Shown here piece by piece: positions 1,553 through 13,628 of a stretch of 13,628 bases of DNA. A program made the translations under genes and the position numbers. Source of the DNA: Acidobacteriota bacterium (GTDB lineage: Bacteria > Acidobacteriota > UBA6911). The number at the start of each line of letters is the position of its first letter. The stretch's first letter is position 1. The stretch spans positions 1 through 13,628 of the forward strand of contig JAIRVC010000239.1 of NCBI GenBank assembly GCA_031254095.1, given 5' to 3'. The notes below the pieces were generated by a model. It saw only the letters and a program-made list of their open reading frames with translations, had not been told where the DNA came from and made no database searches.

Positions 1553-4500
1553 CTACTGCCACTCATTCGCAAGCGGAGAAACCTCGCGCAGCGAACGGTG
1601 CAGGTTGCCGAGCTTATCAGGCGCAACGCGCTTTCCGTCGATCTGTATGTAAATATCGCCGCCGGCGTGTGTTTCGCCGAGACGGATTGACCTAACATCA
1701 AGAAATTCGTTCATCTTGAGCGCATACACGCGCAGCTGGACATCGTTATACAGTTTTTCCGAGCCCAGCGCCTTGCATTCGTCGCAGCCGCAAATATCAA
1801 GTTTATGCACGACAAACGCGGAATTGTCGGCCCGGCGCATACTCTCCTCCGTTCCTTCACGGAACGGGGCGTAATGAGTGTGCAGTAATTCATGCGCCAG
1901 CGGCGAATTCGGCTCGCCGTAGTAATCCTTATACAAATTAAGGATATCGGGATTCTCGTGCGAACGGCGCAGCGGCGACTGGTTATCTATGGTGACCAGC
2001 ACATTCTGGCGCTCGTCAAGCGCGCCCTTCTTTTCGGGAATCGGGTGTCCCGCGCCGCAGATGCAGCCGCCCGGACAGGCCATTACTTCGATAAGATCGT
2101 AACCGCATTCCTTGCCGGCGAGAACGCGCTCCGCAATCGCTTCAACGTTATGCAGGCCGGAAACGACGGCCACGCGGATTTTTTCGCCTCCGGCTTCAAC
2201 AACCGCTTCTTTTACGCCCGCGAATCCACGCACTTCCTCAAAGACAAGCCTGTCGGTACGCGCGGCGCCGGTCAGTTTTTCAACCGCCATGCGCAGCGCC
2301 GCTTCAGCGACCCCGCCGGAAGCGCCAAAAAGCACGCCCGCGGATGAAACGCGCTTATACGGCTCGTCAAACTCGCCGGGGGCGACAGCGGCCGCGTCAA
2401 TGCGCACCAGACTGAACATATCGAGCATTTCAACCGTTGTAAGAACGGCATCAACGTCGCGGATGCCGCCCGGAGCGAATTCAGGCCGCGCGGCCTCAAC
2501 CTTTTTTGCAAGGCACGGCACAATCGAAACCACGTACAATTTTTCGCGCGGAATGCCCGAAAGTTGGGCGAAGTGGTTTTTGACGGTGGCGCCCATCATC
2601 TGCTGCGGCGATTTGCAGCTCGACATATGCGGAATCAGACCCGGATACCGGCGTTCGACGAAGTTGACCCACGCGGGACAGCAGGACGTAAATTGCGGGA
2701 GCTTTCCTTTTTTATGATGCGCCCGATCGAGAAAGTCCGTCGTTTCCTCCATGCTCGTAAGATCGGCGGCGAAAGAAAAATCAAATATCTTATCGAAGCC
2801 GATCGCTCGCATGAGACCCGCCATTTTAGCCGACGCCGCTTCGGGCTCAAGGCCGAATGTCTGGGCGATCACCGAACGCACCGCGGGCGCGACAAAGCCG
2901 ACTACCGTAAGGTCGGGATCGTTGATGGCGCGGAACACTTTTCCCTTCGCGCGCCGGAATTCAAGCGCGCCGCAGGGGCAGGAATTGACGCACTGGCCGC
3001 ATGAAACACAGTCCGTATCCCGGAGCGGCAGGCCGCTCTTTGTTCCGACAAGCTGGCGGCCTTTTTTGTAGTACATCGCCAGAACGTCCGGACCCTCTAT
3101 TTCAGCGCACGCGGCTACGCAACGACCGCAGGAAATACATTTATTGTGGTCGCGCTCAATAAACGGATGATCGTGAACTATAGGCAGGATTGGGCGGGCG
3201 TGATGCGGTTTTTGGAATTCCACGCCGTGTATGCTCGCCTCTTTGCGCAGGGTGCAGTTGTAACGTTCGCCGCAGCCGCATCGCAGGCAGCGTCCCGCTT
3301 CCTGCCGGGCGTCTTCCTCGGTATATCCGAGTTCGACTTCCGTGAATCCTCCTAGCCGCTCATTGTCCGCAATGGAACGCATCGGCGCGCGCCTCAGGCG
3401 CGGTATTTCTTCAAATTCCCATCGCGGAAGGTCTTCGAGCGTGCCGCGGTTGCAGGTGTAAACGTCGTTTTCCTCGTGGACGTATCCCTTAGTTACAAAC
3501 ATGTGCATTGCCGCCGCCGCCTGCCGCCCGGCGGCGACGCCCTGTATCACCGTCGCCGGGCCGGTTACGCAGTCGCCGCCCGCGAAGACCTTATCGACTG
3601 AACACTGAAACGTTCTGGAGTTCACGTCTATGTCGCCCCATTTGTTGAGGCGCACGGGAAGGTCGTTGTAAAGGAATTGGACGTTTGTGCTCTGGCCGAT
3701 AGCGCCGATTACCAAATCCGCTTCGAGAAGGAACTCCGAGCCTTCAATCGGAACGGGCTTGCGGCGTCCTGACCTGTCTTTCTCTCCAAGTTCCATTCTA
3801 AGGAAATGCACTTCCTTGCGGCCGGCGGCGTTCAGCGCTATCCGCGCGGGAGAAGCCAGAAACACCATTTCAACGCCTTCCGCAAGCGCCTCTTTTACCT
3901 CGAATTCCTCGGCGGGCATCTGTTCATAAGTTCGCCGGTAAACCAGCCTGACTTTTTTCGCTCCGCGGCGCAGGGCCGTACGCGCGCAGTCTATTGCCGT
4001 ATTGCCGCCGCCAAGCACTACCACGGAATTCCCCGGATGGGCGTCTATGCCCTTGGTCACCTGCTCAAGGTAATGAATTCCCAGCCGCACTCCGTCGAGA
4101 TTTTCGCCCTCTATATGCAGCGGCGTGGCAATCCATGAACCTATGGCGAGATATACCGCGTCGAAATCCCTCTGCAGATCCTCAAGACGCAGGTGCGTGC
4201 CAAGCGCCTTGCCGGTGACAATCCTTACGCCGAGGCTCCGGATAATGTCGATTTCCTTGTCCAGCGTCGCCTTGGGCAGCCTGTATTCGGGGATGCCGTA
4301 CCGCATCATCCCGCCGGCGTGCGGCTGCCGTTCGAAAACGGTAATTTCGTGCCCGTTCAGCGCCGAATAATACGCGGCGGAAAGACCCGAAGGACCCGCG
4401 CCGACCACGGCTATTTTTCTGCCGCTCGGCTCATTTTTTTTGGGAATCCACGGCGTTTCGCGCGCCATATCCCAATCGGCGGCGAAACGTTTGACATGGT

Positions 4501-5023
4501 TGATGGCTACAGGCGCGTCCACAAGATTGCGGCGGCAGGCGGCTTCGCAGGGATGCGGGCAAACGCGGCCGCAGACTATAGGAAACGGATTGCTGTCTTT
4601 TATGATTTTGATCGCCGTTTCATAATTGCCGTTGCTTACCTGTGTAAGATACCTTTGTATGTCGATGTTCGCCGGACATGTCGTTACGCAGGGCGCGACG
4701 CAGTCAGCGTTGTGATCCGAAAGCAGCTGCTCAAGGCGTATTTTCCGGTACATTTCCAGCTTTGAGTTGTTTGTCGTGATATTCATTCCCGGAAGGATTG
4801 GAGTCTGGCACGCCTTGACCTCCCGTTTGTCGTTCAGCTCCACATCGACCACGCAAAGCCCGCAACTGCCGTTTGAACGCTCAACGCGGATGTCGTAACA
4901 AAGATGGGGCACATAAATATTTTCCTGAAGGAGCGCCTGGAGAATCGTTAATCCCGCTGTAACCTCAATTTTCCGGTCGTTGACCGTTACTTCGATTCTG
5001 TTGTTTTTGATGCCTGTTGCCAT
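1553..5023 (-). CDS. [FeFe]-hydrogenase fused to a GltD/NfnB-like NAD(P)H oxidoreductase module
   Basis: This 1156-residue cytoplasmic enzyme probably exchanges electrons between NAD(P)H and H2. Domains in order: a plant-type 2Fe-2S domain (Cys 42, 54, 57, 72); a GltD-like N-terminal cluster region (Cys 108, 112, 116, 151, 155, 159, 163); an FAD site VVGAGPSG (206-213) and an NAD(P) site VLGGGNTA (336-343); the GltD-type AGGDC at 481-485 and RCLRCGCG near 580; two 4Fe-4S ferredoxin motifs (Cys 629/632/635/639 and 672/675/678/682); then the H-cluster domain. All three H-cluster signatures are intact: TSCCPAW (779-785), VPCLAKKVE (836-843) and EVMACPGGCICG (979-990), giving ligands C782, C837, C983 and C987 and proton-relay C781. 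A small-subunit-like stretch (YGEPNSPLAHELLHTHY) follows near 1035-1051, then a 95-residue tail with CGCDEC. The ribosome-binding site GAGAGG precedes the ATG. No maturase genes (hydEFG) or hydB/hydC partners are seen. It appears to be transcribed alone, divergent from the sigma gene. Confidence 0.93.
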   Translation of the reverse strand: MATGIKNNRIEVTVNDRKIEVTAGLTILQALLQENIYVPHLCYDIRVERSNGSCGLCVVDVELNDKREVKACQTPILPGMNITTNNSKLEMYRKIRLEQLLSDHNADCVAPCVTTCPANIDIQRYLTQVSNGNYETAIKIIKDSNPFPIVCGRVCPHPCEAACRRNLVDAPVAINHVKRFAADWDMARETPWIPKKNEPSGRKIAVVGAGPSGLSAAYYSALNGHEITVFERQPHAGGMMRYGIPEYRLPKATLDKEIDIIRSLGVRIVTGKALGTHLRLEDLQRDFDAVYLAIGSWIATPLHIEGENLDGVRLGIHYLEQVTKGIDAHPGNSVVVLGGGNTAIDCARTALRRGAKKVRLVYRRTYEQMPAEEFEVKEALAEGVEMVFLASPARIALNAAGRKEVHFLRMELGEKDRSGRRKPVPIEGSEFLLEADLVIGAIGQSTNVQFLYNDLPVRLNKWGDIDVNSRTFQCSVDKVFAGGDCVTGPATVIQGVAAGRQAAAAMHMFVTKGYVHEENDVYTCNRGTLEDLPRWEFEEIPRLRRAPMRSIADNERLGGFTEVELGYTEEDARQEAGRCLRCGCGERYNCTLRKEASIHGVEFQKPHHARPILPIVHDHPFIERDHNKCISCGRCVAACAEIEGPDVLAMYYKKGRQLVGTKSGLPLRDTDCVSCGQCVNSCPCGALEFRRAKGKVFRAINDPDLTVVGFVAPAVRSVIAQTFGLEPEAASAKMAGLMRAIGFDKIFDFSFAADLTSMEETTDFLDRAHHKKGKLPQFTSCCPAWVNFVERRYPGLIPHMSSCKSPQQMMGATVKNHFAQLSGIPREKLYVVSIVPCLAKKVEAARPEFAPGGIRDVDAVLTTVEMLDMFSLVRIDAAAVAPGEFDEPYKRVSSAGVLFGASGGVAEAALRMAVEKLTGAARTDRLVFEEVRGFAGVKEAVVEAGGEKIRVAVVSGLHNVEAIAERVLAGKECGYDLIEVMACPGGCICGAGHPIPEKKGALDERQNVLVTIDNQSPLRRSHENPDILNLYKDYYGEPNSPLAHELLHTHYAPFREGTEESMRRADNSAFVVHKLDICGCDECKALGSEKLYNDVQLRVYALKMNEFLDVRSIRLGETHAGGDIYIQIDGKRVAPDKLGNLHRSLREVSPLANEWQ

Positions 5024-5165: not shown

Positions 5166-5193
5166 TTAAAATCTCACGTAATTGATATCGGGC

Positions 5194-5817
5194 ATGATGG
5201 ATTCTACGGATGCGACACTGGTTGACAGAACTCGCAATGGCGATGAACGGGCGTTTGCCGAACTTGTCCGCCGTTATCAGGCGGCCGTCTGGGGAACCGC
5301 TCATCGCCTGTTGGGCAATTCTTCCGAAAAGGAAGACGCCGTACAGGAAACATTTCTCAGGGCGTTTACCGCGCTCGGTAAATTCGATCCCAAATATCCA
5401 TTCGGCCCCTGGATTCTCAGGATCGCGGCCAATTACTGTATCGACCAATTGCGAAAACGAAAGAGCGGAAAAACACGGTTGTGGTCTGAATTGGGAGATT
5501 TGGAGCAGGAACGGCTGCTGCGTGATTTCACGCGGGACGGCGGCGTTGAATCTTCCGTGAAGTCGGATTTGGAAAGTTATGCCGAAGCGGCGCGGTCTTT
5601 GCTGGACAGGCTGAATCCGAAATACAGGGCGGCGTTCGTCCTTCGCGAAGTAGAGGAAAGAGAATACGACGAAGTCGCGGAAATTTTAGGAACGACGGGA
5701 GCGGCCGCGAGAGTGCGCGTTTGCCGCGCGCGGTCGGAGTTGCAAAAAAAGTTAAGCGAGCTGCCTGGAATTAAAACGGGCAAAAAAAGGGACGCAAACG
5801 AAAATGAAAAACTGTGA
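5194..5817 (+). CDS. ECF-type RNA polymerase sigma factor
   Basis: This encodes a group IV sigma-70 factor of about 207 residues that would direct RNA polymerase to a small regulon. Sigma region 2 spans about residues 8-90 (GDERAFAELVRRYQ, then SEKEDAVQETFLRAF and WILRIAANYCIDQLRKRK). Region 4 spans about 137-190 (LNPKYRAAFVLREVEEREYDEVAEILGT, then VRVCRARSELQKKL). The helix-turn-helix reads GTTGAAARVRVCRAR, where most ECF factors have a GTVKSR-like motif, so its -35 preference may be unusual. The start is uncertain. ATG at 5194 or 5197 fits the family length, a TTG at 5182 would add four residues, and none has a strong Shine-Dalgarno sequence. The last 14 nt overlap the anti-sigma gene, which implies coupled translation and a regulatory pair. 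It is divergent from the hydrogenase gene. Confidence 0.9.
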   Translation: MMDSTDATLVDRTRNGDERAFAELVRRYQAAVWGTAHRLLGNSSEKEDAVQETFLRAFTALGKFDPKYPFGPWILRIAANYCIDQLRKRKSGKTRLWSELGDLEQERLLRDFTRDGGVESSVKSDLESYAEAARSLLDRLNPKYRAAFVLREVEEREYDEVAEILGTTGAAARVRVCRARSELQKKLSELPGIKTGKKRDANENEKL

Positions 5818-6250
5818 ATTGCTGGATCGCTATCGCGACGGGGAATTGAACGATTCCCAAAAGGAAGAATTCCGGAGACACCTTGCCGTCTGCCGGGAAT
5901 GCAGGACGGCAAACGCGTTGCTGGACAATCTTGTTTCAGTCATGCGCGATGAAACCATTACAATGAGCGACATGGCGGATAAAATCGCCCGCCGGGCATT
6001 CCAGCGAATTTCCTCCTGGGATGGATTGCTTGCGCAATGGTTCCGGCCCGGACTTGCTTTCGCGACAGCCTGTCTTTCCATTGCCCTGTGCGCTTTTATC
6101 TGGTTTGCGCCTGAAAGGCCGCCGGATGATTCCATGGAATATGAAACGCTTCTGAATCAGGCAGACGCCAGCGATCCGGCAAGTGAAATTCTGACTGCCG
6201 GCGAAAGTGATTTCGTTCTTATGCTGATGTGGGGAGGAAATACCCAGTGA
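5804..6250 (+). CDS. Membrane-anchored zinc-finger anti-sigma factor
   Basis: This 148-residue protein probably holds the preceding ECF sigma factor inactive at the inner membrane. The N-terminus has the anti-sigma zinc-finger pattern: C4, then ELLDRYRDGEL, then H26-x3-C30-x2-C33 (HLAVCREC). A linker of about 45 residues follows, then a single membrane segment at about 82-101 (PGLAFATACLSIALCAFIWF) and an acidic periplasmic tail of about 45 residues ending in FVLMLMWGGNTQ. This is the normal layout for a sigma-binding inner domain with an outside sensor part. It overlaps the sigma gene by 14 nt and shares its last four bases with the GTG start of the next gene. Release of the sigma factor could be by proteolysis or by a signal from the exported partner downstream; the sequence does not show which. 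Confidence 0.88.
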   Translation: MKNCELLDRYRDGELNDSQKEEFRRHLAVCRECRTANALLDNLVSVMRDETITMSDMADKIARRAFQRISSWDGLLAQWFRPGLAFATACLSIALCAFIWFAPERPPDDSMEYETLLNQADASDPASEILTAGESDFVLMLMWGGNTQ

Positions 6251-6801
6251 AAGTACAGATGCGGGCAATTGCGGTTTTGATTATGGTTTTGCTTTTGGGC
6301 TGCCTGATCGGCGCGGCGGGTTCATGGCTCAGGTATGGGAAACACGAAAATATCAGGGGTGGCGAAAGGCAGGGATCATCGCCGCAGTTCCTGCCCCGGG
6401 GCAGCGATAGACAGGAGTCGCCGCAGATCCAGTCCCGGGGCGGCGAAAGACAGGAGTCGCCGCAACTCCTGCCTAGAGGCGGCGAAAGACAGCTGCCGGA
6501 ATTGCTCGGCATGACGCCCGAACAGAGAGGCCGGTATGAAGATATTATGAGAGAATCGCGTCAGCGGCTGGATACCCTGAGCAGGGAGCAGCGGTTGAAA
6601 ATAGACGCGGTTGTCGAGGAAGCCAATAAAAAAATCCGGTCGATACTAGACAACGAACAAAAAACAAAACTGGAAGCGTTTCTTGAAGACGTCAACAAAC
6701 AGCGCGGGCGCGGCGCCAGCGGTTCTCGCAACGGGCGCGGTTCAGGTTCGCCGTCTCCGGCTCCGGAGCGCGGGCGCAAGCCTGACAACCGGCAGCCCTG
6801 A
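6247..6801 (+). CDS. Membrane-anchored periplasmic Spy/CpxP/CnrX-like sensor protein
   Basis: This encodes a 184-residue exported or anchored protein. GTG at 6247 is chosen because it overlaps the previous stop as GTGA and has a GGGAGG site about nine bases upstream; a GTG at 6229 is less likely. An N-terminal hydrophobic segment at about 7-26 (AIAVLIMVLLLGCLIGAAG) is a signal anchor, or possibly a lipoprotein signal through C19. Residues 37-88 form a charged repeat linker (RGGERQESPQLLP type). Residues about 90-160 are helical and heptad-rich, with MTPEQRGRYEDIM and ILDNEQKTKLEAFLE resembling the LTxxQ motifs of Spy/CpxP proteins. The tail is Arg/Gly/Pro-rich and disordered. Its place behind a sigma and an anti-sigma gene resembles the CnrH/CnrY/CnrX arrangement, so a periplasmic sensor of metal or misfolded-protein stress is a fair inference. 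The ligand is unknown. Confidence 0.7.
   Translation: MKVQMRAIAVLIMVLLLGCLIGAAGSWLRYGKHENIRGGERQGSSPQFLPRGSDRQESPQIQSRGGERQESPQLLPRGGERQLPELLGMTPEQRGRYEDIMRESRQRLDTLSREQRLKIDAVVEEANKKIRSILDNEQKTKLEAFLEDVNKQRGRGASGSRNGRGSGSPSPAPERGRKPDNRQP
6355..6510 (+). repeat. In-frame 13-codon tandem repeats (RGGERQESPQLLP type)
   Basis: Four units are visible inside the sensor gene: 6355-6396 (14 codons), 6397-6435, 6436-6474 (13 codons each) and a partial unit at 6475-6510. All begin R-G-[GS]-[ED]-R-Q. The DNA is also similar from unit to unit, so the array could gain or lose copies by slippage. It would act as a flexible, highly charged spacer between membrane and periplasmic domain. Confidence 0.8.
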
Positions 6802-7017: not shown

Positions 7018-8106
7018 TCAACGTTTTTCTTTAAAACCCCATGTTTCAAATCCGATAAAAACCGGTTCGGGGTTTAGCGCAACGCCGAATGACGCCGCCA
7101 CCCGTTCCTGAATCAGTTTCATAAGGCTTACGATTTCCGACGACGACGCGCCGCCGCGATTGACGAGCGCCAGCGCGTGCTTTTTGGAGATGCCCGCACG
7201 GCCATGCGCGTATCCTTTGGAAAATCCTGAATGTTCGATCAGCCAGGCAGCGGCGAGTTTGATATTTCCTTCAGGCGCGTCAAAACATGGTATGGCTTCG
7301 TCCGGAGCTATAACTCCGGCGGCGCGAGCCTTTTGTTTAAGCGCGGCGAATTCATCGCGGGAAACAACCGGATTTTTGAAAAAAGATCCGGCGCTCCGTG
7401 AATCGGAATCGTTGGGATCTAAAAGCATTCCTTTTGACTTGCGGATTTCAAGCACCGCGCTTCGAACTTCGGCAAGCGAAGGATTCACGCTGCCGGCAAA
7501 ATATTTCCGCAGATCCGCGTATTGCGCGCCCGGCCGCCCATTCTTTTGAAGAAGAAACTCCGTTTGCAGCACAATATATCGTCCGGCGGCGGCGCTGAAA
7601 ACGCTGCCGCGGTAGGCAAACGCACATTCGGCGCGGGTTAATTCAACAATCTTATCCGCGCGCGTATCCCAGGCGTGTACGGCGGCGATGGTTTCGCCGG
7701 CCTCCTGTCCGTAAGCGCCTATGTTCTGTACCGGCGCGCCGCCGGCAGTGCCGGGAATGCCGCTCAGCGCTTCAACGCCCGCAAGATTGCGGCTCACGCA
7801 ATATTGCACAAAAGCGTCCCACTCCACGCCCGCGCCGACGGCTATCCGCGCGTCGGCATCCGGGGGCGCGCTCAGCGGACGTATGCCCGGAATCTCAATT
7901 TTTAGAACAAATCCGTGAAAACCCGCGTCGGCGACAACGAGGTTGCTTCCTCCTCCGAGCGTAAAAACCGGCAATGAACGCGCCCGCGCGAAAGACAGTG
8001 CTTCGGCGATATGATTTTCATCGGACGCGGCCGCGAAAAAGCGGGCCGGGCCGCCCACGCCCAGAGTGGTAAAAGGAGCCAGTGAGACATTTTCCCGGAT
8101 CAGCAT
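7018..8106 (-). CDS. murB: UDP-N-acetylenolpyruvoylglucosamine reductase (MurB)
   Basis: This flavoenzyme reduces UDP-GlcNAc-enolpyruvate with NADPH to UDP-N-acetylmuramate, the second committed step of peptidoglycan synthesis in the cytoplasm. The 362-residue length fits the family. FAD-binding motifs are TTLGVGGPARFF (13-24), GGGSNLVV (51-58) and ALSGIPGTAGGAPVQNIGAYG (113-133). The catalytic set is present: R166 in YRGS, the general acid S241 in SAGSFFKNP, and E347 in LNPEPVFIG. The EGNIKLAAAWLIEHSGF block (279-295) is the substrate-binding C-terminal domain. It follows larA with a 33-nt gap and a GGA-type ribosome-binding site, so it is probably the last gene of the lactate cluster. That is an unusual place, since murB normally sits with other wall genes. 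Enzyme identity is secure; the reason for the linkage is unknown. Confidence 0.96.
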   Translation of the reverse strand: MLIRENVSLAPFTTLGVGGPARFFAAASDENHIAEALSFARARSLPVFTLGGGSNLVVADAGFHGFVLKIEIPGIRPLSAPPDADARIAVGAGVEWDAFVQYCVSRNLAGVEALSGIPGTAGGAPVQNIGAYGQEAGETIAAVHAWDTRADKIVELTRAECAFAYRGSVFSAAAGRYIVLQTEFLLQKNGRPGAQYADLRKYFAGSVNPSLAEVRSAVLEIRKSKGMLLDPNDSDSRSAGSFFKNPVVSRDEFAALKQKARAAGVIAPDEAIPCFDAPEGNIKLAAAWLIEHSGFSKGYAHGRAGISKKHALALVNRGGASSSEIVSLMKLIQERVAASFGVALNPEPVFIGFETWGFKEKR

Positions 8107-8139: not shown

Positions 8140-9390
8140 TTACATTTTTACCCGCGGAATAGTCAGACTGCCGTCAAGAAGAGCCAGAACTTTCGCGTCC
8201 TTCCCTTTTTTGGCGAGCGCCGCGTCAATGGCTTCCTGCAATGACTTGAACGGCCGTATAAATATGCTCTCCAGCAAACCGGGCTCAAGATCAGTCACGG
8301 CCCATACTTCCGCCGAAAGGCCGACTTCGGCCATCTTCGCCGCCTTGTGGTATCCCAGCTCAAATTTCTGCTCAATCTTTTTCAGGGCGTCCGCGGGGGA
8401 ATCGGCCGAACTAAGCAGCTTCACAAAGGAATCGTCGCCGACGCCCATCCGGCACTTGGCGACCAATAGCAGTATACCGCCTTCTTTCAGGGCATACTTG
8501 GCGTTGTCAATTCCCTTCTGCGCCTGATAGAGGTCTATGTCCGAAGGGAATTTCACAACCGAAATCACAATGTCGCATTTTTCGGGAATCTCAGCCACGA
8601 ACACTTCGTTCGCTTTGGAAATCGCCGGATCGAGCGACCGGTGAACGTCGCCTGCCGCCGCCGCGTAAATGCGATGGTTTTTGTCGAGCACGGTATTGAT
8701 GGCGAAAACCTCTTTTTTCACCGTGCCGAGAGCGTCGATCATGTCCTCGTGAACCGGGTTCCCCTCAAGTTTCAGCGCGCAGGCCTCCTGCTTTAGCGCC
8801 AGTTTGTGGTTCTGTTCGATCGTTTCATACGCGGCGATGCCCGGCAGAAACGACTTGCGCCCGCCCGTGTAGCCGGCAAAGTAGTGCGGCTCAACGGAGC
8901 TGATTATGACAATCCGGTCGGCCTCAACGCCCAGCCGGTTGACGCGCATCTGCGTGCCGTTTTTAGACGCGCCGAGAAACACCATGTCTTCGCTCTTTTT
9001 CGCGTCATGGACGAAAATACGATCTTTGTATTTCAGATAATGTTTTTCGGAGAATATTTGCAGATATTCCTCGTGCGTCGGGGCGCGATGCGCGCCGGTC
9101 GCCACGATAAAACTCACATTGTGACCGGCTATATCCTTTTCAATAAAATCCAGCACGCGGGCGGTCGGCGTAGGCCGGGTCGGATCGTTCACGATAAAAA
9201 GAACATCGCTAGCCCCTTTGAGGAACGCGCCCAGACTTTCATAGCCGACCGGATTTGCCAGCGCTTCGCGGATGGTCGCGGCTTCGTCGCCGATTTTAAC
9301 TTCGTTCGGCTCAATAACGCCGGCGACGCGCGCGTCGTCAATCACAGCCTCAAGGCTTCCGTCCTTGCCGTAAGGAACTTTCAGAATCAT
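8140..9390 (-). CDS. larA: Nickel-pincer lactate racemase family protein (LarA)
   Basis: LarA enzymes interconvert D- and L-lactate with a covalently bound nickel-pincer nucleotide. The 416 residues match the family length. The key residues known from Lactobacillus plantarum LarA can be placed: DPTRPTP (69-75) for substrate and cofactor binding, H101 in ATGAHR, H169 in EPHYFAGY, the cofactor-anchoring lysine K179 in GGRKSFLPG, H195 in NHKLA, and Q291/K292 in YQAQKG. An active racemase is therefore expected. Related LarA paralogues racemise other 2-hydroxyacids, so the substrate is inferred from the neighbours. Translation is coupled to the upstream Fe-S gene by a 4-nt ATGA overlap with a strong AAGGAG site. 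The cofactor genes larB, larC and larE are not in the window and must lie elsewhere. Confidence 0.88.
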   Translation of the reverse strand: MILKVPYGKDGSLEAVIDDARVAGVIEPNEVKIGDEAATIREALANPVGYESLGAFLKGASDVLFIVNDPTRPTPTARVLDFIEKDIAGHNVSFIVATGAHRAPTHEEYLQIFSEKHYLKYKDRIFVHDAKKSEDMVFLGASKNGTQMRVNRLGVEADRIVIISSVEPHYFAGYTGGRKSFLPGIAAYETIEQNHKLALKQEACALKLEGNPVHEDMIDALGTVKKEVFAINTVLDKNHRIYAAAAGDVHRSLDPAISKANEVFVAEIPEKCDIVISVVKFPSDIDLYQAQKGIDNAKYALKEGGILLLVAKCRMGVGDDSFVKLLSSADSPADALKKIEQKFELGYHKAAKMAEVGLSAEVWAVTDLEPGLLESIFIRPFKSLQEAIDAALAKKGKDAKVLALLDGSLTIPRVKM

Positions 9391-10343
9391 CGCGCGCTCC
9401 TTGCCATCAACGGCCCTAGCGATTTGATCTCCTCCATGAAGCTTTTCGTCTCCGCGGTAAATTTACCCGCTTCTTTTGGAGGAACTTCCACTACCTTGAC
9501 CCGGTTGGGATCAATGCCGATATTTTTCAGCGATTCGGTCAGTATCTTTACGCGCGCCTTGACCCGCGCGTTGCCGCCGTGTTCGCAATCGTCTTCGGGA
9601 CAGCAGCAGATGAGGACGCCCCACGCTCCCGCGTCAAGCGTGTCGAGTACGGTCTTGGACGTGACGCGCCCGGCGCAGATCGTCATCAAAACCTTGTATT
9701 CCGGATTTTCATCCAGCTTGTAGTAACGCGCGGTTTGAAGTCCCGGATAGTTGCCCCAGCCGCAGGAAAACACGACCGCTTTCGCTCCGGTATTCGCGGG
9801 GTTGCCGAAGAAATCCGTTACCGCGCGTTTCAGCTCTTCCGGGTTTGTGCCGAAACCCTGCTCAATAGTTATGCCTATTGCCGGGCAGACATCCAGACAG
9901 TTGCCGCAGGACTGGCATTTCAGACGATCAACCTCGATACGGTCATTGGCGTAATGGCGCGCCTCGTGCTTGCAGCTGCGCACGCAGGCGAGGCAGAGCG
10001 CGCAGGCGTCTTGGTCCGTAAGCGAGGTGGTTCCGGGAACATCGTAACCGGCTTCCTGCAGAAAAGCCCTTGCGTCGTTGTAAACATCCTGAATCGGCAC
10101 GCCCGACGAACAGGCTTTCTGGCAGCGGTTGCAGTGAAAACATTCGAACAGTTTTTCGGCAACATAAGGCGTCGGCTGCACCTGGCCGCTGAGAAGCCCG
10201 TACAACAGGATCAGTTTGCCGCGCGGGCTGTCGGAATCCCAGCGCGTTGACTTATAAATCTGACAATGCTCGTAGCAGTAGCCGCAACGAATACATTTAT
10301 TAAGAGCGCTTTTCCATTTTTCAAGTTTTTCCAGATTTGTCAT
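9387..10343 (-). CDS. HdrC-like / ferredoxin / MvhD fusion iron-sulfur protein
   Basis: This 318-residue soluble electron carrier has four 4Fe-4S motifs followed by an MvhD/FlpD-like domain. The HdrC/GlpC-type pair is C17/C20/C23/C27 and C68/C71/C74/C78. A two-cluster ferredoxin segment follows with C114/C117/C120/C124 and C143/C146/C149/C153. From about residue 187 the sequence follows the delta subunit of methyl-viologen-reducing hydrogenase: VVFSCGWGNYPG, ICAGRV (222-227), then CCCPEDDCEHGGNARVKAR (246-264) and GIDPNRVK. In MvhD the first motif is usually CNWC; here its second Cys is Gly, while C194, C223, C246-248 and C253 remain. No HdrB-type CCG domain is present. It lies 18 nt after the flavin dehydrogenase gene and overlaps larA by 4 nt, so it is the likely electron acceptor of lactate oxidation. 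An HdrA-like partner would be expected elsewhere. Confidence 0.85.
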   Translation of the reverse strand: MTNLEKLEKWKSALNKCIRCGYCYEHCQIYKSTRWDSDSPRGKLILLYGLLSGQVQPTPYVAEKLFECFHCNRCQKACSSGVPIQDVYNDARAFLQEAGYDVPGTTSLTDQDACALCLACVRSCKHEARHYANDRIEVDRLKCQSCGNCLDVCPAIGITIEQGFGTNPEELKRAVTDFFGNPANTGAKAVVFSCGWGNYPGLQTARYYKLDENPEYKVLMTICAGRVTSKTVLDTLDAGAWGVLICCCPEDDCEHGGNARVKARVKILTESLKNIGIDPNRVKVVEVPPKEAGKFTAETKSFMEEIKSLGPLMARSAR

Positions 10344-10361
10344 GACTATAATTCCTGCTGT

Positions 10362-11795
10362 TTATTTAGATGTCTGATAACGTAATTGCGTTTCTGAAAC
10401 CCAGTCGTCGGGGCCGTCCATCAGCTTGCCGGGATTCAGAATATTGTTCGGATCGAACGCCTTTTTAATCGCGCGCATAAGCTCAAGCGTCTCCGCCTTT
10501 TCCTTTTTAAACGCGGCCGCCTTGGAGAGCCCGATGCCGTGCTCGGCGGAAGTCGTTCCGCCCACCGACTGCACAAAATCGTAGATTTCGGCAACGGCGG
10601 CTTTGGCTGCCTCCCACTGGGATTCGTCGTCCGTATCCATAAGAATTTTTGTGTGCATACAGCCCGCGCCGCAGTGGCCGTAAGCGGTCATTACAAGGCC
10701 GTGGCGGTCGGCCACTTCATGAATCTTGTCGGCGGTCTCGGCCATCTTTGAGAACGGCACCGCCATGTCGTCGGCCAGCGACGTCGAGGCAAGCCGTTCA
10801 TCATATTTTGAAAGCGACGGGAACAGCTTGGAACGCCCCGCCCAGATGCGCGCCCGTTCTTTCTCCTCATAGCTGTATTCAAAGCCAAAGCCGTTATGTT
10901 TTTCGCAGATCGACTGGAATTTCTGGACTTCCGGATCAACGACTTCCTTCACCATGCCGTCGGCTTCAAATAGAAGAATCGCGTCAACCTCCGGCAGGCC
11001 GAGTTTTTCAGCCTTGTTCGCGGCCACGATGGCGATCCTGTCGATCAGCTCAAGCATCGACGGCTGACAGCCGCTGCTCATAATTTCTGAAATGGCGTGA
11101 CCGGCGTCGGAAAGCAGGTTGAACTTGGCGATGCCCATACACCGCAGTTTGGGAATAGGCACAAAGCGAAGCGTCGCCTCAACGATTATCGCCAGCGTTC
11201 CTTCCGAACCTATGAGAAGTTTTTCCAGCGGATAGCCCGATGCCGCCACGCGGGTATTGGCTCCCAGCGAAAAGCAGTCGCCGTTGGCCATAACGACTTT
11301 TACGGCAAGCACGGCGTCGCGCGCCGCGCCGTATTTTACCGAGCGCGTTCCGGAAGCGTTGTTGGCGATCTCGCCTCCGATGGTGGCGACGACGCTCGAA
11401 GCCGGCGTCGGCGGATAAAAAACGCCGTAAGGCTTCAGCGCGCGATTCAGGTCGTCGTCCACGACGCCCGGTTCAACGCGGCAGTAACCGTCCTCCGGAT
11501 TGATTTCCAGTATCCGGTTCATGTCCCTCATATCGAGTATGATGCCGCCGTACACGGGAACAACCTGGCCGCACATGACAGACGCGGACCCGCGCGGAAT
11601 CACGGGGATTTTCTCGCTGTTGGCATAGCGCATGATCGCCTGCACCTGCTCGGTGTTTTGCGGACGCGCCACCGCGTGAGGCATAGCCTGATGCACGGAG
11701 GAATCCGATCCATATATGTAAAGATCAGCCGGGTCGCTCAAAATGTTTTGCTCCCCGACGATCGCCTTGAGTTTTTCAATATTTACAGAAACCAT
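10362..11795 (-). CDS. FAD-linked D-lactate/glycolate dehydrogenase (GlcD family)
   Basis: This 477-residue flavoprotein probably oxidises a 2-hydroxyacid, most likely D-lactate to pyruvate given the adjacent racemase. The N-terminal FAD domain carries PRGSASVMCG (67-76), the VEPG turn (107-110), PPTPASS (128-134), GGEIANNASGTRSVKYG (140-156) and the IGSEGTLA loop (195-202). The C-terminal domain carries GHCGAGCMH (373-381), SAEHGIG (416-422) and the closing FDPNNILNPGK. The two metal-site His and the E-H pair are kept, but the usual GDGN of GHxGDGNxH reads GAGC. There is no signal peptide or membrane segment, so it is cytoplasmic. A GAGGAG site lies before the ATG. It leads the cluster with the Fe-S protein 18 nt downstream. 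Glycolate or 2-hydroxyglutarate cannot be excluded as substrate from sequence alone. Confidence 0.9.
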   Translation of the reverse strand: MVSVNIEKLKAIVGEQNILSDPADLYIYGSDSSVHQAMPHAVARPQNTEQVQAIMRYANSEKIPVIPRGSASVMCGQVVPVYGGIILDMRDMNRILEINPEDGYCRVEPGVVDDDLNRALKPYGVFYPPTPASSVVATIGGEIANNASGTRSVKYGAARDAVLAVKVVMANGDCFSLGANTRVAASGYPLEKLLIGSEGTLAIIVEATLRFVPIPKLRCMGIAKFNLLSDAGHAISEIMSSGCQPSMLELIDRIAIVAANKAEKLGLPEVDAILLFEADGMVKEVVDPEVQKFQSICEKHNGFGFEYSYEEKERARIWAGRSKLFPSLSKYDERLASTSLADDMAVPFSKMAETADKIHEVADRHGLVMTAYGHCGAGCMHTKILMDTDDESQWEAAKAAVAEIYDFVQSVGGTTSAEHGIGLSKAAAFKKEKAETLELMRAIKKAFDPNNILNPGKLMDGPDDWVSETQLRYQTSK

Positions 11796-12136: not shown

Positions 12137-12213
12137 AAAGAGAGGGGCCGCAAAACCGCATACGGGAAACGTTGCGACATACAAACCACTTACATATATC
12201 AGGGAGAAGTTCA

Positions 12214-13628
12214 ATGATTGAAACAGAAATGGCCGATGCTTCAAAATCCGGCTCCGCAAAAGTAATTTCCGCCGAAGAAGCCGCCGCCCTCATCCAAGAC
12301 GGCGCGACACTCTGTTCGCCGATCATGGGGATGGCCGGCTGGTCCGAAGAAGTCGGGCGGGCGATAGGCAAGCGGTATCTTGAAACAGGACATCCAAAAG
12401 GATGCACGCTGGTCTGCGGCTCGGCAATGGGCAACCATAGAGGCAATGGACCCGAAGTTATGGGACATGAAGGGCTTATCACCAATTTTATCGGCGCGCA
12501 CGTACATGGATCGCCCAGCATTGGAAAATTGATATCGGAAAATAAAATGACCGCCTATTGTTTTCCTCAAGGCGTGGTAGTGCATCTCTTGCGCGAGATC
12601 GCCGCCAAGCGGCCCGGCATCCTTACCAAAGTTGGTCTCGGCACTTTCGTCGATCCCCGCGTCGAAGGCGGCAAGATGAACGAGCTGACCCGGACGAAGG
12701 GTCCCGACATGAATAAAGTCGTTACATTTGAAGGCGAAGAGTATCTCTGGTTTAAAACCTTCCCGATCAATGTCGCCCTGATCCGCGGCACCACGGCGGA
12801 TGAAAACGGCAATCTTACTATCGAAAAGGAAGGCCCGGTACTCGAATGCATGGAAGTCGCCTCGGCCGTCAAAAACAACGGCGGCATCGTTATCGTGCAG
12901 GTGGAGTATCTCGCAAAAGCGGGAACGCTCAATCCTAAACATGTCCGGTTGCCGGGCGTGCTTGTCGATCATATCGTAATCGCGAAAAACCCGCAGGAAT
13001 TCCACACGCAGAGCGAAGGCGTATATTATCAGCCCGCGTTCAGCGGCGAGCTGCGGATGCCGCTCGGCGCGCTGCCGCAGCTTCCGTTCGATGAACGGCT
13101 TTTCATTCTCCGCCGCGCGGCTATGGAACTCCCTCCTAATGCCGTCGTCAATCTCGGCATAGGCACTCCTGACCGCATGGCGACGGTCGCCGCTCACGAA
13201 GGCGTCAGCGATATGATGACGCTCACAACGGAAGCGGGAGGCGTCGGCGGCGTACCGGCCGGCTGGCCAAACTTCGGCATGAGTTACAACGCGGACGCTT
13301 TCGTCAACCATCCGAACATGTTTGACTGGTACGACGGCGGCGGCATAGACCGGGCGTTTCTTGGCATGGGCGAAGTCGATAAGTTCGGCAACGTCAACGT
13401 CAGCAAATTCGGCGGCCGTCCAATCGGCTGCGGCGGCTTCATCAATATCACCACCGCGAGCAAGGGCGTTGTCTATTGCGGCACGTTTACAACCGGCGGG
13501 CTGAAAGTAACCGCCGAGAACGGCAAGCTAAAAATTCTGGAAGAAGGCAAGAAGAAGAAATTTATCGACCATGTGGAGCAAATCACATTCAGCGGCAAGT
13601 ACGCGGCGAAGGGCAGCAAGCCGATCAT
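12214..13628 (+). CDS. pct: Propionate/lactate CoA-transferase (Pct/YdiF family), 3' end cut by the window
   Basis: This enzyme transfers CoA between short-chain acids, for example acetyl- or propionyl-CoA to lactate. The 471 visible codons run off the end, and the family is about 520 residues, so roughly 50 are missing. The N-terminal half matches the alpha-subunit fold (EEAAALIQDGATLCSP; later GLGTFVDPRVEGGKMN and RGTTADENGNLTIEKE). The C-terminal half matches the beta fold (VVNLGIGTPDRMA, then TEAGGVGGVPAG and FGMSYN). The catalytic glutamate that forms the enzyme-CoA thioester is E340 in the T-E-A-G motif (GAA at 13231-13233). The ATG at 12214 has an AGGGAGAAG site five bases upstream. 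Divergent placement against larA and the lactate dehydrogenase supports a role in lactate or propionate metabolism. Acetate or butyrate could also be substrates, as these enzymes are broad. Confidence 0.92.
   Translation, partial: MIETEMADASKSGSAKVISAEEAAALIQDGATLCSPIMGMAGWSEEVGRAIGKRYLETGHPKGCTLVCGSAMGNHRGNGPEVMGHEGLITNFIGAHVHGSPSIGKLISENKMTAYCFPQGVVVHLLREIAAKRPGILTKVGLGTFVDPRVEGGKMNELTRTKGPDMNKVVTFEGEEYLWFKTFPINVALIRGTTADENGNLTIEKEGPVLECMEVASAVKNNGGIVIVQVEYLAKAGTLNPKHVRLPGVLVDHIVIAKNPQEFHTQSEGVYYQPAFSGELRMPLGALPQLPFDERLFILRRAAMELPPNAVVNLGIGTPDRMATVAAHEGVSDMMTLTTEAGGVGGVPAGWPNFGMSYNADAFVNHPNMFDWYDGGGIDRAFLGMGEVDKFGNVNVSKFGGRPIGCGGFINITTASKGVVYCGTFTTGGLKVTAENGKLKILEEGKKKKFIDHVEQITFSGKYAAKGSKPI

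Follow-up and report, generated by a model that had tools for sequence, protein, structure and literature searches.

Several of the closest described relatives of the system studied here join a GlcD-type flavoprotein to a dedicated electron partner or are built from heterodisulfide reductase (Hdr) and Mvh components. In LctBCD of Acetobacterium woodii (structure 7qh2), an Etf-dependent confurcating lactate dehydrogenase, the partner of the GlcD-type flavoprotein is EtfAB. In the GlcDEF glycolate oxidase and in pairs of GlcD with GlcF or HdrD, such as that of the Thermodesulfovibrio lactate cluster (PMC5165239), it is an iron-sulfur protein with an HdrC-like N terminus. HdrD/GlcD pairs are also described in archaeal work (PMC10667645), and GlcD has been named as a lactate dehydrogenase (PMC9723716). 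Twelve bifurcating enzymes, including the Etf-lactate dehydrogenase and the MetFV of Moorella, which is listed together with MvhD and HdrABC, are treated in one source (PMC6085437), the available excerpt of which names no GlcD-MvhD pair. Here we describe a module of three genes, designated GLCD, FUS, and LARA, in a 13,628-nucleotide stretch of an Acidobacteriota genome (contig JAIRVC010000239.1; the whole stretch is called the window). We consider it rather probable that the module, comprising a predicted D-malate dehydrogenase and a predicted malate racemase together with a putative electron wire of Hdr origin, is a soluble malate-oxidizing system. In the open-access literature searched, we recognized no description of the GLCD-FUS-LARA module; genes of COG0277 and COG0247 (dehydrogenases and oxidoreductases) have already been noted near several LarA groups (PMC7583248).

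The features of the module are as follows.

10362..11795, minus strand: GLCD, 477 residues, GlcD/vanillyl-alcohol oxidase-type dehydrogenase using flavin adenine dinucleotide (FAD), predicted D-malate dehydrogenase (Pfam, NCBIfam, and solved relatives)
10647..10649, minus strand: GLCD Lys383, candidate ligand of the second carboxylate of the substrate (codon checked; alignments with D-lactate dehydrogenase [LDHD] and the motif of D-2-hydroxyglutarate dehydrogenase [D2HGDH])
9387..10343, minus strand: FUS, 318 residues, fusion of HdrC, an HdrA-type 2[4Fe-4S] ferredoxin, and MvhD, predicted electron relay
10041..10343, minus strand: FUS residues 1 to 101, HdrC-like domain with two CxxCxxCxxxC motifs
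9849..10043, minus strand: FUS residues 101 to 165, ferredoxin domain resembling the C-terminal ferredoxin of HdrA
9390..9794, minus strand: FUS residues 184 to 318, MvhD domain
8140..9390, minus strand: LARA, 416 residues, racemase dependent on the nickel-pincer nucleotide (NPN), predicted malate racemase
8344..8349, minus strand: LARA His348-Lys349, malate-racemase pair at the positions of LarA W358 and T359 (codons checked)

The gap between GLCD and FUS is 18 nucleotides, and the FUS stop and LARA start codons overlap in ATGA. Pfam domains FAD_binding_4 and FAD-oxidase_C were identified in GLCD, Lar_N and LarA_C in LARA, and 4Fe-4S dicluster regions and an FlpD/MvhD domain above its cutoff in FUS. 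The open reading frames (ORFs) and Pfam matches bear out the gene positions and identities of a preliminary description of this DNA, namely, a GlcD-type dehydrogenase and a LarA-type racemase with an HdrC-ferredoxin-MvhD fusion between them; all three genes are on the minus strand. Among the window ORFs scanned (nine by Pfam and eight by NCBIfam), none matched Etf and none matched GlcE. The genome, in which the window is contig C63, is incomplete (2.09 Mb in 399 contigs, 76% complete).

Conservation of the GLCD-FUS-LARA gene set

FUS loci were sought by scanning genome contigs with an alignment of 29 FUS homologues drawn from the 120 listed of 139; 170 loci were confirmed, and the best 80, many of which end at contig ends, were kept. 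Neighbors were counted by tblastn for those families that had a query chosen from these loci, with one match, the best, taken for each family in a locus. The 80 loci belong to Acidobacteriota, Desulfobacterota, Spirochaetia, Dehalococcoidia, Thermoplasmatota, a Woesearchaeote, WOR-3, and others. With the window proteins as queries, GLCD was found upstream of FUS on the same strand in 78 loci, so the pairing of GlcD with an HdrC/MvhD fusion to which the preliminary description had pointed is conserved. The two loci without GLCD are L039, where the contig ends, and L101, where the absence is real and FUS lies amid hydrogenase genes; in L089, two genes separate GLCD from FUS. LARA is present downstream in 65 of the 80 loci and is missing from nine archaeal loci and from L027, L029, L089, L101, L102, and L077 (contig end).

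Among 297 Acidobacteriota genomes, GLCD (E <= 1e-120) was found in eight and FUS (E <= 1e-50) in seven, the two being adjacent in all seven; the eighth GLCD, which has no FUS beside it, runs off its contig. FUS is carried by 69 of the 86 genomes in the family to which G318 (the genome with the Desulfospira locus L078) belongs. The distance matrices of GLCD and FUS are correlated with r = 0.94 (48 sequences). Because kinship alone inflates such correlations, LARA, which is encoded in the same operon, was taken as the control and gave values of 0.79 with GLCD and 0.73 with FUS. The linkage of GLCD and FUS is not due to chance.

Residues and neighboring genes bearing on the substrate

Specificity in the LarA superfamily rests on few residues, which are F, F, W, and E/Q in lactate racemases and Y, F, H/Q, and T in 2-hydroxyglutarate racemases; in malate racemases, the first two vary and are followed by H/Q and K (PMC7583248, PMC11770544). 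The window LARA has Y170, F171, H348, and K349 at these positions, and Q291 precedes its catalytic Lys, like Q293 of the malate racemase Mar2. Among 63 LARA sequences, including that of the window, the H348-K349 pair and Q291 are invariant in the 61 readable ones, and Y170 and F171 are invariant in 62; the H-K pair also occurs in three further homologues (two archaeal and one from WOR-3). All catalytic and NPN-binding residues (LarA D72, R75, H108, H174, K184, H200, and K298) are present, with no other letter at these positions in the 63 sequences and gaps in at most 2. The solved structure nearest to LARA is Mar2 (6d6z; 239 bits, versus 203 for lactate racemase 2yjg), and the NCBIfam model for LarAH6 malate racemase gave the best score of six models (385.8 bits). 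LARA thus shares with Mar2/LarAH6 (6d6z, 7s91) the catalytic, cofactor, and Q, H, and K specificity residues and differs from Mar2 in having F171 in place of Lys173. Given the H-K signature, the likeness to Mar2, and a LarAH6 score below the cutoff, we read LARA as a predicted malate racemase that falls outside LarAH6 as strictly modeled. LarC, which is needed for the nickel cofactor, was found in 15 of the 25 genomes searched, including that of the window.

The nearest solved relatives of GLCD are glycolate oxidase 9qgz and then LctD 7qh2 (249.6 bits). The residues that bind the metal, the C1 carboxylate, and the hydroxyl have been defined in D2HGDH and LDHD (PMC7801405, PMC10589216), and GLCD keeps the ones that the two enzymes share (R321, H374, H381, E418, and H419). 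The side-chain pocket of LDHD is hydrophobic and includes Ile407 (PMC10589216). GLCD has Lys383 at this position, two residues after a metal-binding His, and it is also the position of the carboxylate-binding Asn443 of human D2HGDH; the correspondence to mouse LDHD was obtained by alignment and that to D2HGDH by motif, in both cases from sequence rather than coordinates. Of the 75 GLCD sequences, including that of the window, 71 have a letter there (three have a gap and L027 has an X), and in 70 of these it is Lys. The single other letter, a Gly in L047, was treated as misaligned, the gene being frameshifted in its contig. Other relatives in the alignments examined have Leu, Tyr, Ile, or Asn at this position, and the aligned 7qh2 chain has Tyr. 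A single Lys conserved at this place in the pocket would fit a short dicarboxylate substrate. D2HGDH (6lpn), which also takes D-malate, resembles GLCD in its metal- and FAD-dependent active site and polar side-chain pocket, whereas its Thr390, Lys401, and Asn443 positions are occupied by Phe, Ala, and Lys in GLCD.

The preliminary description read the cluster as a possible lactate dehydrogenase of the electron-confurcating type, encoded together with a lactate racemase. LctD is the second closest solved relative of GLCD, LARA falls within the lactate racemase superfamily, and the acidobacterial loci yielded no malate gene next to the module. However, LARA has H-K instead of W-E/Q, and Lys383 replaces the hydrophobic Ile407 of LDHD. 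Lactate was therefore set aside as the substrate on the residues of both proteins, with added support from neighboring genes in 12 of the 80 loci, and we regard the earlier reading as very improbable. A different 2-hydroxydicarboxylate, such as 2-hydroxyglutarate or tartrate, appears improbable, if slightly less so. Y170, F171, and H348 of LARA also occur in 2-hydroxyglutarate racemases, tartrate is a side substrate of malate racemases (PMC11770544), and a pocket Lys would suit any dicarboxylate; on the other hand, LARA has K349 instead of T, GLCD lacks the Lys401 and Asn443 of D2HGDH, and genes for malic enzyme, fumarase, and a phosphoenolpyruvate carboxykinase (PEPCK)-like protein lie near some loci. 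Taken alone, the assignment of malate as the substrate is likely.

Genes of malate/oxaloacetate type were found by tblastn near the module in those 12 loci: malic enzyme in 8 (3 on the FUS strand), oxaloacetate decarboxylase alpha in 7 (6), carboxyl transferase in 7 (7), oxaloacetate decarboxylase beta in 3 (3), fumarase alpha/beta in 2 (2), and aconitase in 4 (0). In the Dehalococcoidia loci L090 and L091, genes for carboxyl transferase, oxaloacetate decarboxylase alpha, GLCD, FUS, and LARA are followed by those for fumarase alpha, HdrC, HdrB, an iron-sulfur protein, an FAD_binding_2 protein, and fumarase beta. This order recalls the mmc cluster of Pelotomaculum, which has malate dehydrogenase among similar steps (PMC6046458). 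In the archaeal locus L116 (genome G326), the cluster has as its neighbors fumarase alpha/beta, LARA, and a PEPCK-like gene, which was identified by eye and gave no match in NCBIfam at the threshold applied. In the WOR-3 locus L115 (genome G328), LARA lies beside two proteins that score above the cutoff of the malate dehydrogenase model TIGR01763.

FUS and its candidate electron partners

All 20 cysteines of FUS are invariant in 72 of 72 sequences. The AlphaFold model of the protein (pLDDT 87.5, pTM 0.84) has structural matches to HdrC, ferredoxin, and MvhD; a Foldseek search with it returned 909 matches at E <= 10, and the four at E <= 0.001 are all MvhD. In the NCBIfam comparison, FUS residues 92 to 312 align with HdrA2 residues 557 to 774. 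FUS is thus built of the same HdrC-like, HdrA-type ferredoxin, and MvhD pieces as HdrABC-MvhADG and HdrA2 of methanogens (5odc, 8rvu, 7bkb); it differs from them in having neither the HdrA flavin domain nor HdrB, its catalytic partner being a GlcD-type dehydrogenase. Compared with GlcF and HdrD, it lacks CCG domains and carries the ferredoxin and MvhD domains in their place. Lacking the flavin domain, FUS may simply relay electrons in a line to a partner docking on MvhD; taken alone, its role as an electron relay is very likely.

In the favored scheme, LARA, a nickel-pincer racemase, would interconvert L-malate and D-malate, and GLCD, a metal- and FAD-dependent 2-hydroxyacid dehydrogenase, would oxidize D-malate to oxaloacetate. 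The studied members of the 2-hydroxyacid dehydrogenase family of GLCD act on D-isomers. The electron pair would leave the FAD of GLCD through the two [4Fe-4S] clusters of the HdrC-like domain of FUS, pass to the two of the ferredoxin domain, and reach the MvhD site. FUS would therefore amount to the Hdr-Mvh wire minus the bifurcating flavin domain, with GLCD taking the place of HdrB. The MvhD end might then dock on a lineage-dependent partner, which could be HdrA with MvhAG in archaea and two unclassified bacteria and MetVF in Acidobacteriota and some Desulfobacterota.

The preliminary description also called the module Etf-less, and the wider set of loci agrees. EtfA and EtfB were found on the FUS strand in none of the 80 loci, also at E <= 1e-5, in searches with one query each that could miss a divergent Etf. 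On the opposite strand, EtfA occurs in 15 loci and EtfB in 13. EtfAB was rejected as a hidden partner, its matches in these one-query searches lying on the opposite strand only.

Confurcation through HdrA, in which FUS docks on HdrA and the electrons from malate, jointly with reduced ferredoxin, reduce a mid-potential acceptor, is a possibility that we rate below the favored scheme and think somewhat unlikely. It corresponds to the mechanism of the preliminary description with lactate replaced by malate. FUS contains both HdrA-facing pieces, HdrC and MvhD. HdrA-family matches (E <= 1e-60) were found in 34 of the 37 genomes searched, i.e., in 32 of 35 module carriers (G002 and G009, which have no module, were excluded, and G001 was counted by its cut GLCD). 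Co-occurrence with an hdrA-like gene, as suggested in the preliminary description, thus stands in general, but it fails in G302 and G303 (loci L027 and L029) and in G325, a Woesearchaeote of 0.6 Mb, which have no match at this threshold. At 1e-30, the only HdrA-family match in G302, a small metagenome-assembled genome, is FUS itself, and 44 of 60 family mates have none. HdrA is therefore probably absent from this carrier. Among the matches listed, near full-length HdrA (from model positions 1 to 4 through 637 or beyond) is present in at least 15 of the 35 carriers (G000, G001, G304, G306, G308, G310, G311, G319 to G323, and G326 to G328); the listed matches of the others are partial, and the best ones in G004, G005, and G006 are near 1e-80. 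The genome of the window has a full-length HdrA together with MvhD on contig C58, beside HdrC, HdrB, and an FrhB-like gene (identified by eye).

HdrA lies on the FUS strand in 8 of the 80 loci, most of them with MvhA/MvhG, and MvhA lies there in 9, all archaeal or L089 and L101. In L089, the order HdrA-MvhD-GLCD-regulator-CCG protein-FUS-MvhG-MvhA supports HdrA confurcation. HdrA was not found on the FUS strand of the window, nor on that of the remaining 72 loci of the 80. Moreover, FUS carries its own ferredoxin domain and no flavin domain, so HdrA would not be needed to join its clusters.

Several further observations concern these loci and HdrA proteins. The run in L089 (3399-12378, one strand) includes an ArsR-like regulator and an HdrD/GlcF-like CCG protein, both identified by eye, so that a CCG-type paralogue stands directly beside FUS. 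In L101 (653-6400), FUS is flanked by MvhG and MvhA, and HdrA and MvhD belong to the same run of genes. Full-length HdrA2-type proteins above the family cutoff, each with one in-frame TGA that possibly encodes selenocysteine, were found at G308:C59:1779-4109 and G310:C54:44968-47298.

A direct malate:methylene-tetrahydrofolate oxidoreductase, in which MetV would receive the MvhD end of FUS, so that malate/oxaloacetate is connected with the methyl branch of one-carbon (C1) metabolism without HdrA, is in our judgment unlikely. The potentials of the two couples are close (about -170 mV for malate/oxaloacetate and about -200 mV for methylene-/methyl-tetrahydrofolate, with NAD at -320 mV and ferredoxin at -400 to -500 mV), which counts in its favor. 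MetV lies on the FUS strand in 12 of the 80 loci (four Acidobacteriota loci, L027, L029, L030 with MetV only, L031, L041, L042, L076, and L092) and MetF in 11. The order GLCD-FUS-MetV-MetF is found in L029, where FUS and MetV overlap by 4 nucleotides, and in L027, where MetV starts about 260 nucleotides after FUS, and neither genome has an HdrA match at E <= 1e-60. C1 genes occur near 44 of the 80 loci, and the Moorella MetFV mentioned above is also gene-linked to an MvhD module, although here GLCD is present and HdrA is absent from the operon. Against this proposal, no MetVF lies beside the module in the window or its nearest relative L023, same-strand MetVF is missing from most Desulfobacterota loci and from all archaeal loci, and most of the 44 loci with C1 genes have RACo on the opposite strand (29 loci). 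In addition, LARA gave no match in G302 and G303, which would leave L-malate out of reach in these genomes. RACo, a corrinoid reductive activator, is encoded, for example, at L035:3290-5236; FTCD lies on the opposite strand in 8 loci, and ThyX lies on the FUS strand in 6.

The module might also run in the reductive direction, H2 or another donor reducing oxaloacetate to D-malate, which would be racemized to L-malate for fumarase. Hydrogenase genes on the FUS strand in the archaeal loci, L089, and L101 are consistent with this, as are the oxaloacetate decarboxylase alpha, fumarase, HdrB/HdrC, and FAD_binding_2 genes near the module in L090 and L091. Module-carrying Desulfobacteraceae are mostly known as oxidizers, and we doubt the reductive direction about as much as docking on MetV. 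The HdrA, MetVF, and reductive proposals are not mutually exclusive, and the likelihoods assigned to them overlap.

A broader form of the favored scheme may be put forward tentatively, as a proposal with a small chance of holding in full. FUS would be a straight wire through which a single two-electron enzyme, the D-malate dehydrogenase, could serve whichever protein docks on MvhD. For Acidobacteriota and their relatives, the result would be a malate:methylene-tetrahydrofolate oxidoreductase that connects the pool of C4 acids with the methyl branch of the Wood-Ljungdahl pathway and needs neither NAD nor ferredoxin; for archaea, it would be a malate/oxaloacetate enzyme linked to hydrogenase.

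The window itself offers a candidate electron partner, judged by its predicted domains, in a 1,156-residue fusion (1553-5023, minus strand) of a [2Fe-2S] N terminus, a GltD-type NAD(P) flavodomain, and a group A [FeFe] hydrogenase. The remaining neighbors are as follows.

7018-8106, minus strand: murB, next after LARA
5182-6801, plus strand: in a row, an extracytoplasmic function sigma factor, a zinc-finger protein of the anti-sigma type, and a protein without a Pfam match
12172-13626, plus strand: divergent coenzyme A (CoA) transferase, nearest to FadX but far below its cutoff, running off the window end

A CoA transferase gene was also called near the module in L041, L042, and L076 (ORF-based neighbor calls).

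The module in malate metabolism

Several observations weigh against a malate-oxidizing system. The LARA score of 385.8 bits is below the LarAH6 cutoff of 500, as are those of five relatives (372 to 394 bits), and in the specificity pattern only K349 separates LARA from 2-hydroxyglutarate racemases. By motif and by the LDHD alignment, GLCD lacks the Lys401 (A341 in GLCD) and Thr390 (F325) of D2HGDH. G302, G303, G320, and G325 all have GLCD-FUS and no LARA match at E <= 1e-20, LarC was not found in five genomes with a whole or fragmentary LARA (G319, G321, G322, G326, and G327), and L101 carries FUS without GLCD. Genes of malate type lie near the module in only 12 of the 80 loci, none of them acidobacterial, and C1 genes (MetV, MetF, RACo, FTCD, and ThyX) lie near it in 44. 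Finally, the malate/lactate dehydrogenase family PF02866 is not anticorrelated with FUS in the G318 family, occurring in 24 of 69 genomes with FUS and in 5 of 17 without it. These counts show no anticorrelation that would support the idea that the module replaces an NAD-dependent malate dehydrogenase.

PF02866 was found in 13 of the 35 module genomes and not in the 76% complete genome of the window. In the G318 family, it is missing from 45 of the 69 FUS-carrying genomes (PF02615 and Mqo were not searched). Sulfate reducers of this kind are known as complete oxidizers, and with FUS in 69 of 86 genomes and no PF02866 match in 45 of those 69, a candidate malate step in sulfate reducers becomes testable. 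Desulfobacterium autotrophicum is drawn with malic enzyme in its genome paper. Desulfococcus multivorans uses malic enzyme and encodes homologues of the tricarboxylic acid cycle enzymes, its Mdh protein not having been detected according to its genome paper. For the naphthalene culture N47, NAD-linked malate dehydrogenase activity has been reported (PMC12137691).

If FUS is a wire, Hdr parts would serve as an adaptor without bifurcation; if it docks on HdrA, then HdrA would have a new partner of high potential in malate/oxaloacetate. Similar genes that are labeled D-lactate dehydrogenase or lactate racemase would need relabeling. The module may show how some anaerobes without an ordinary malate dehydrogenase handle malate.

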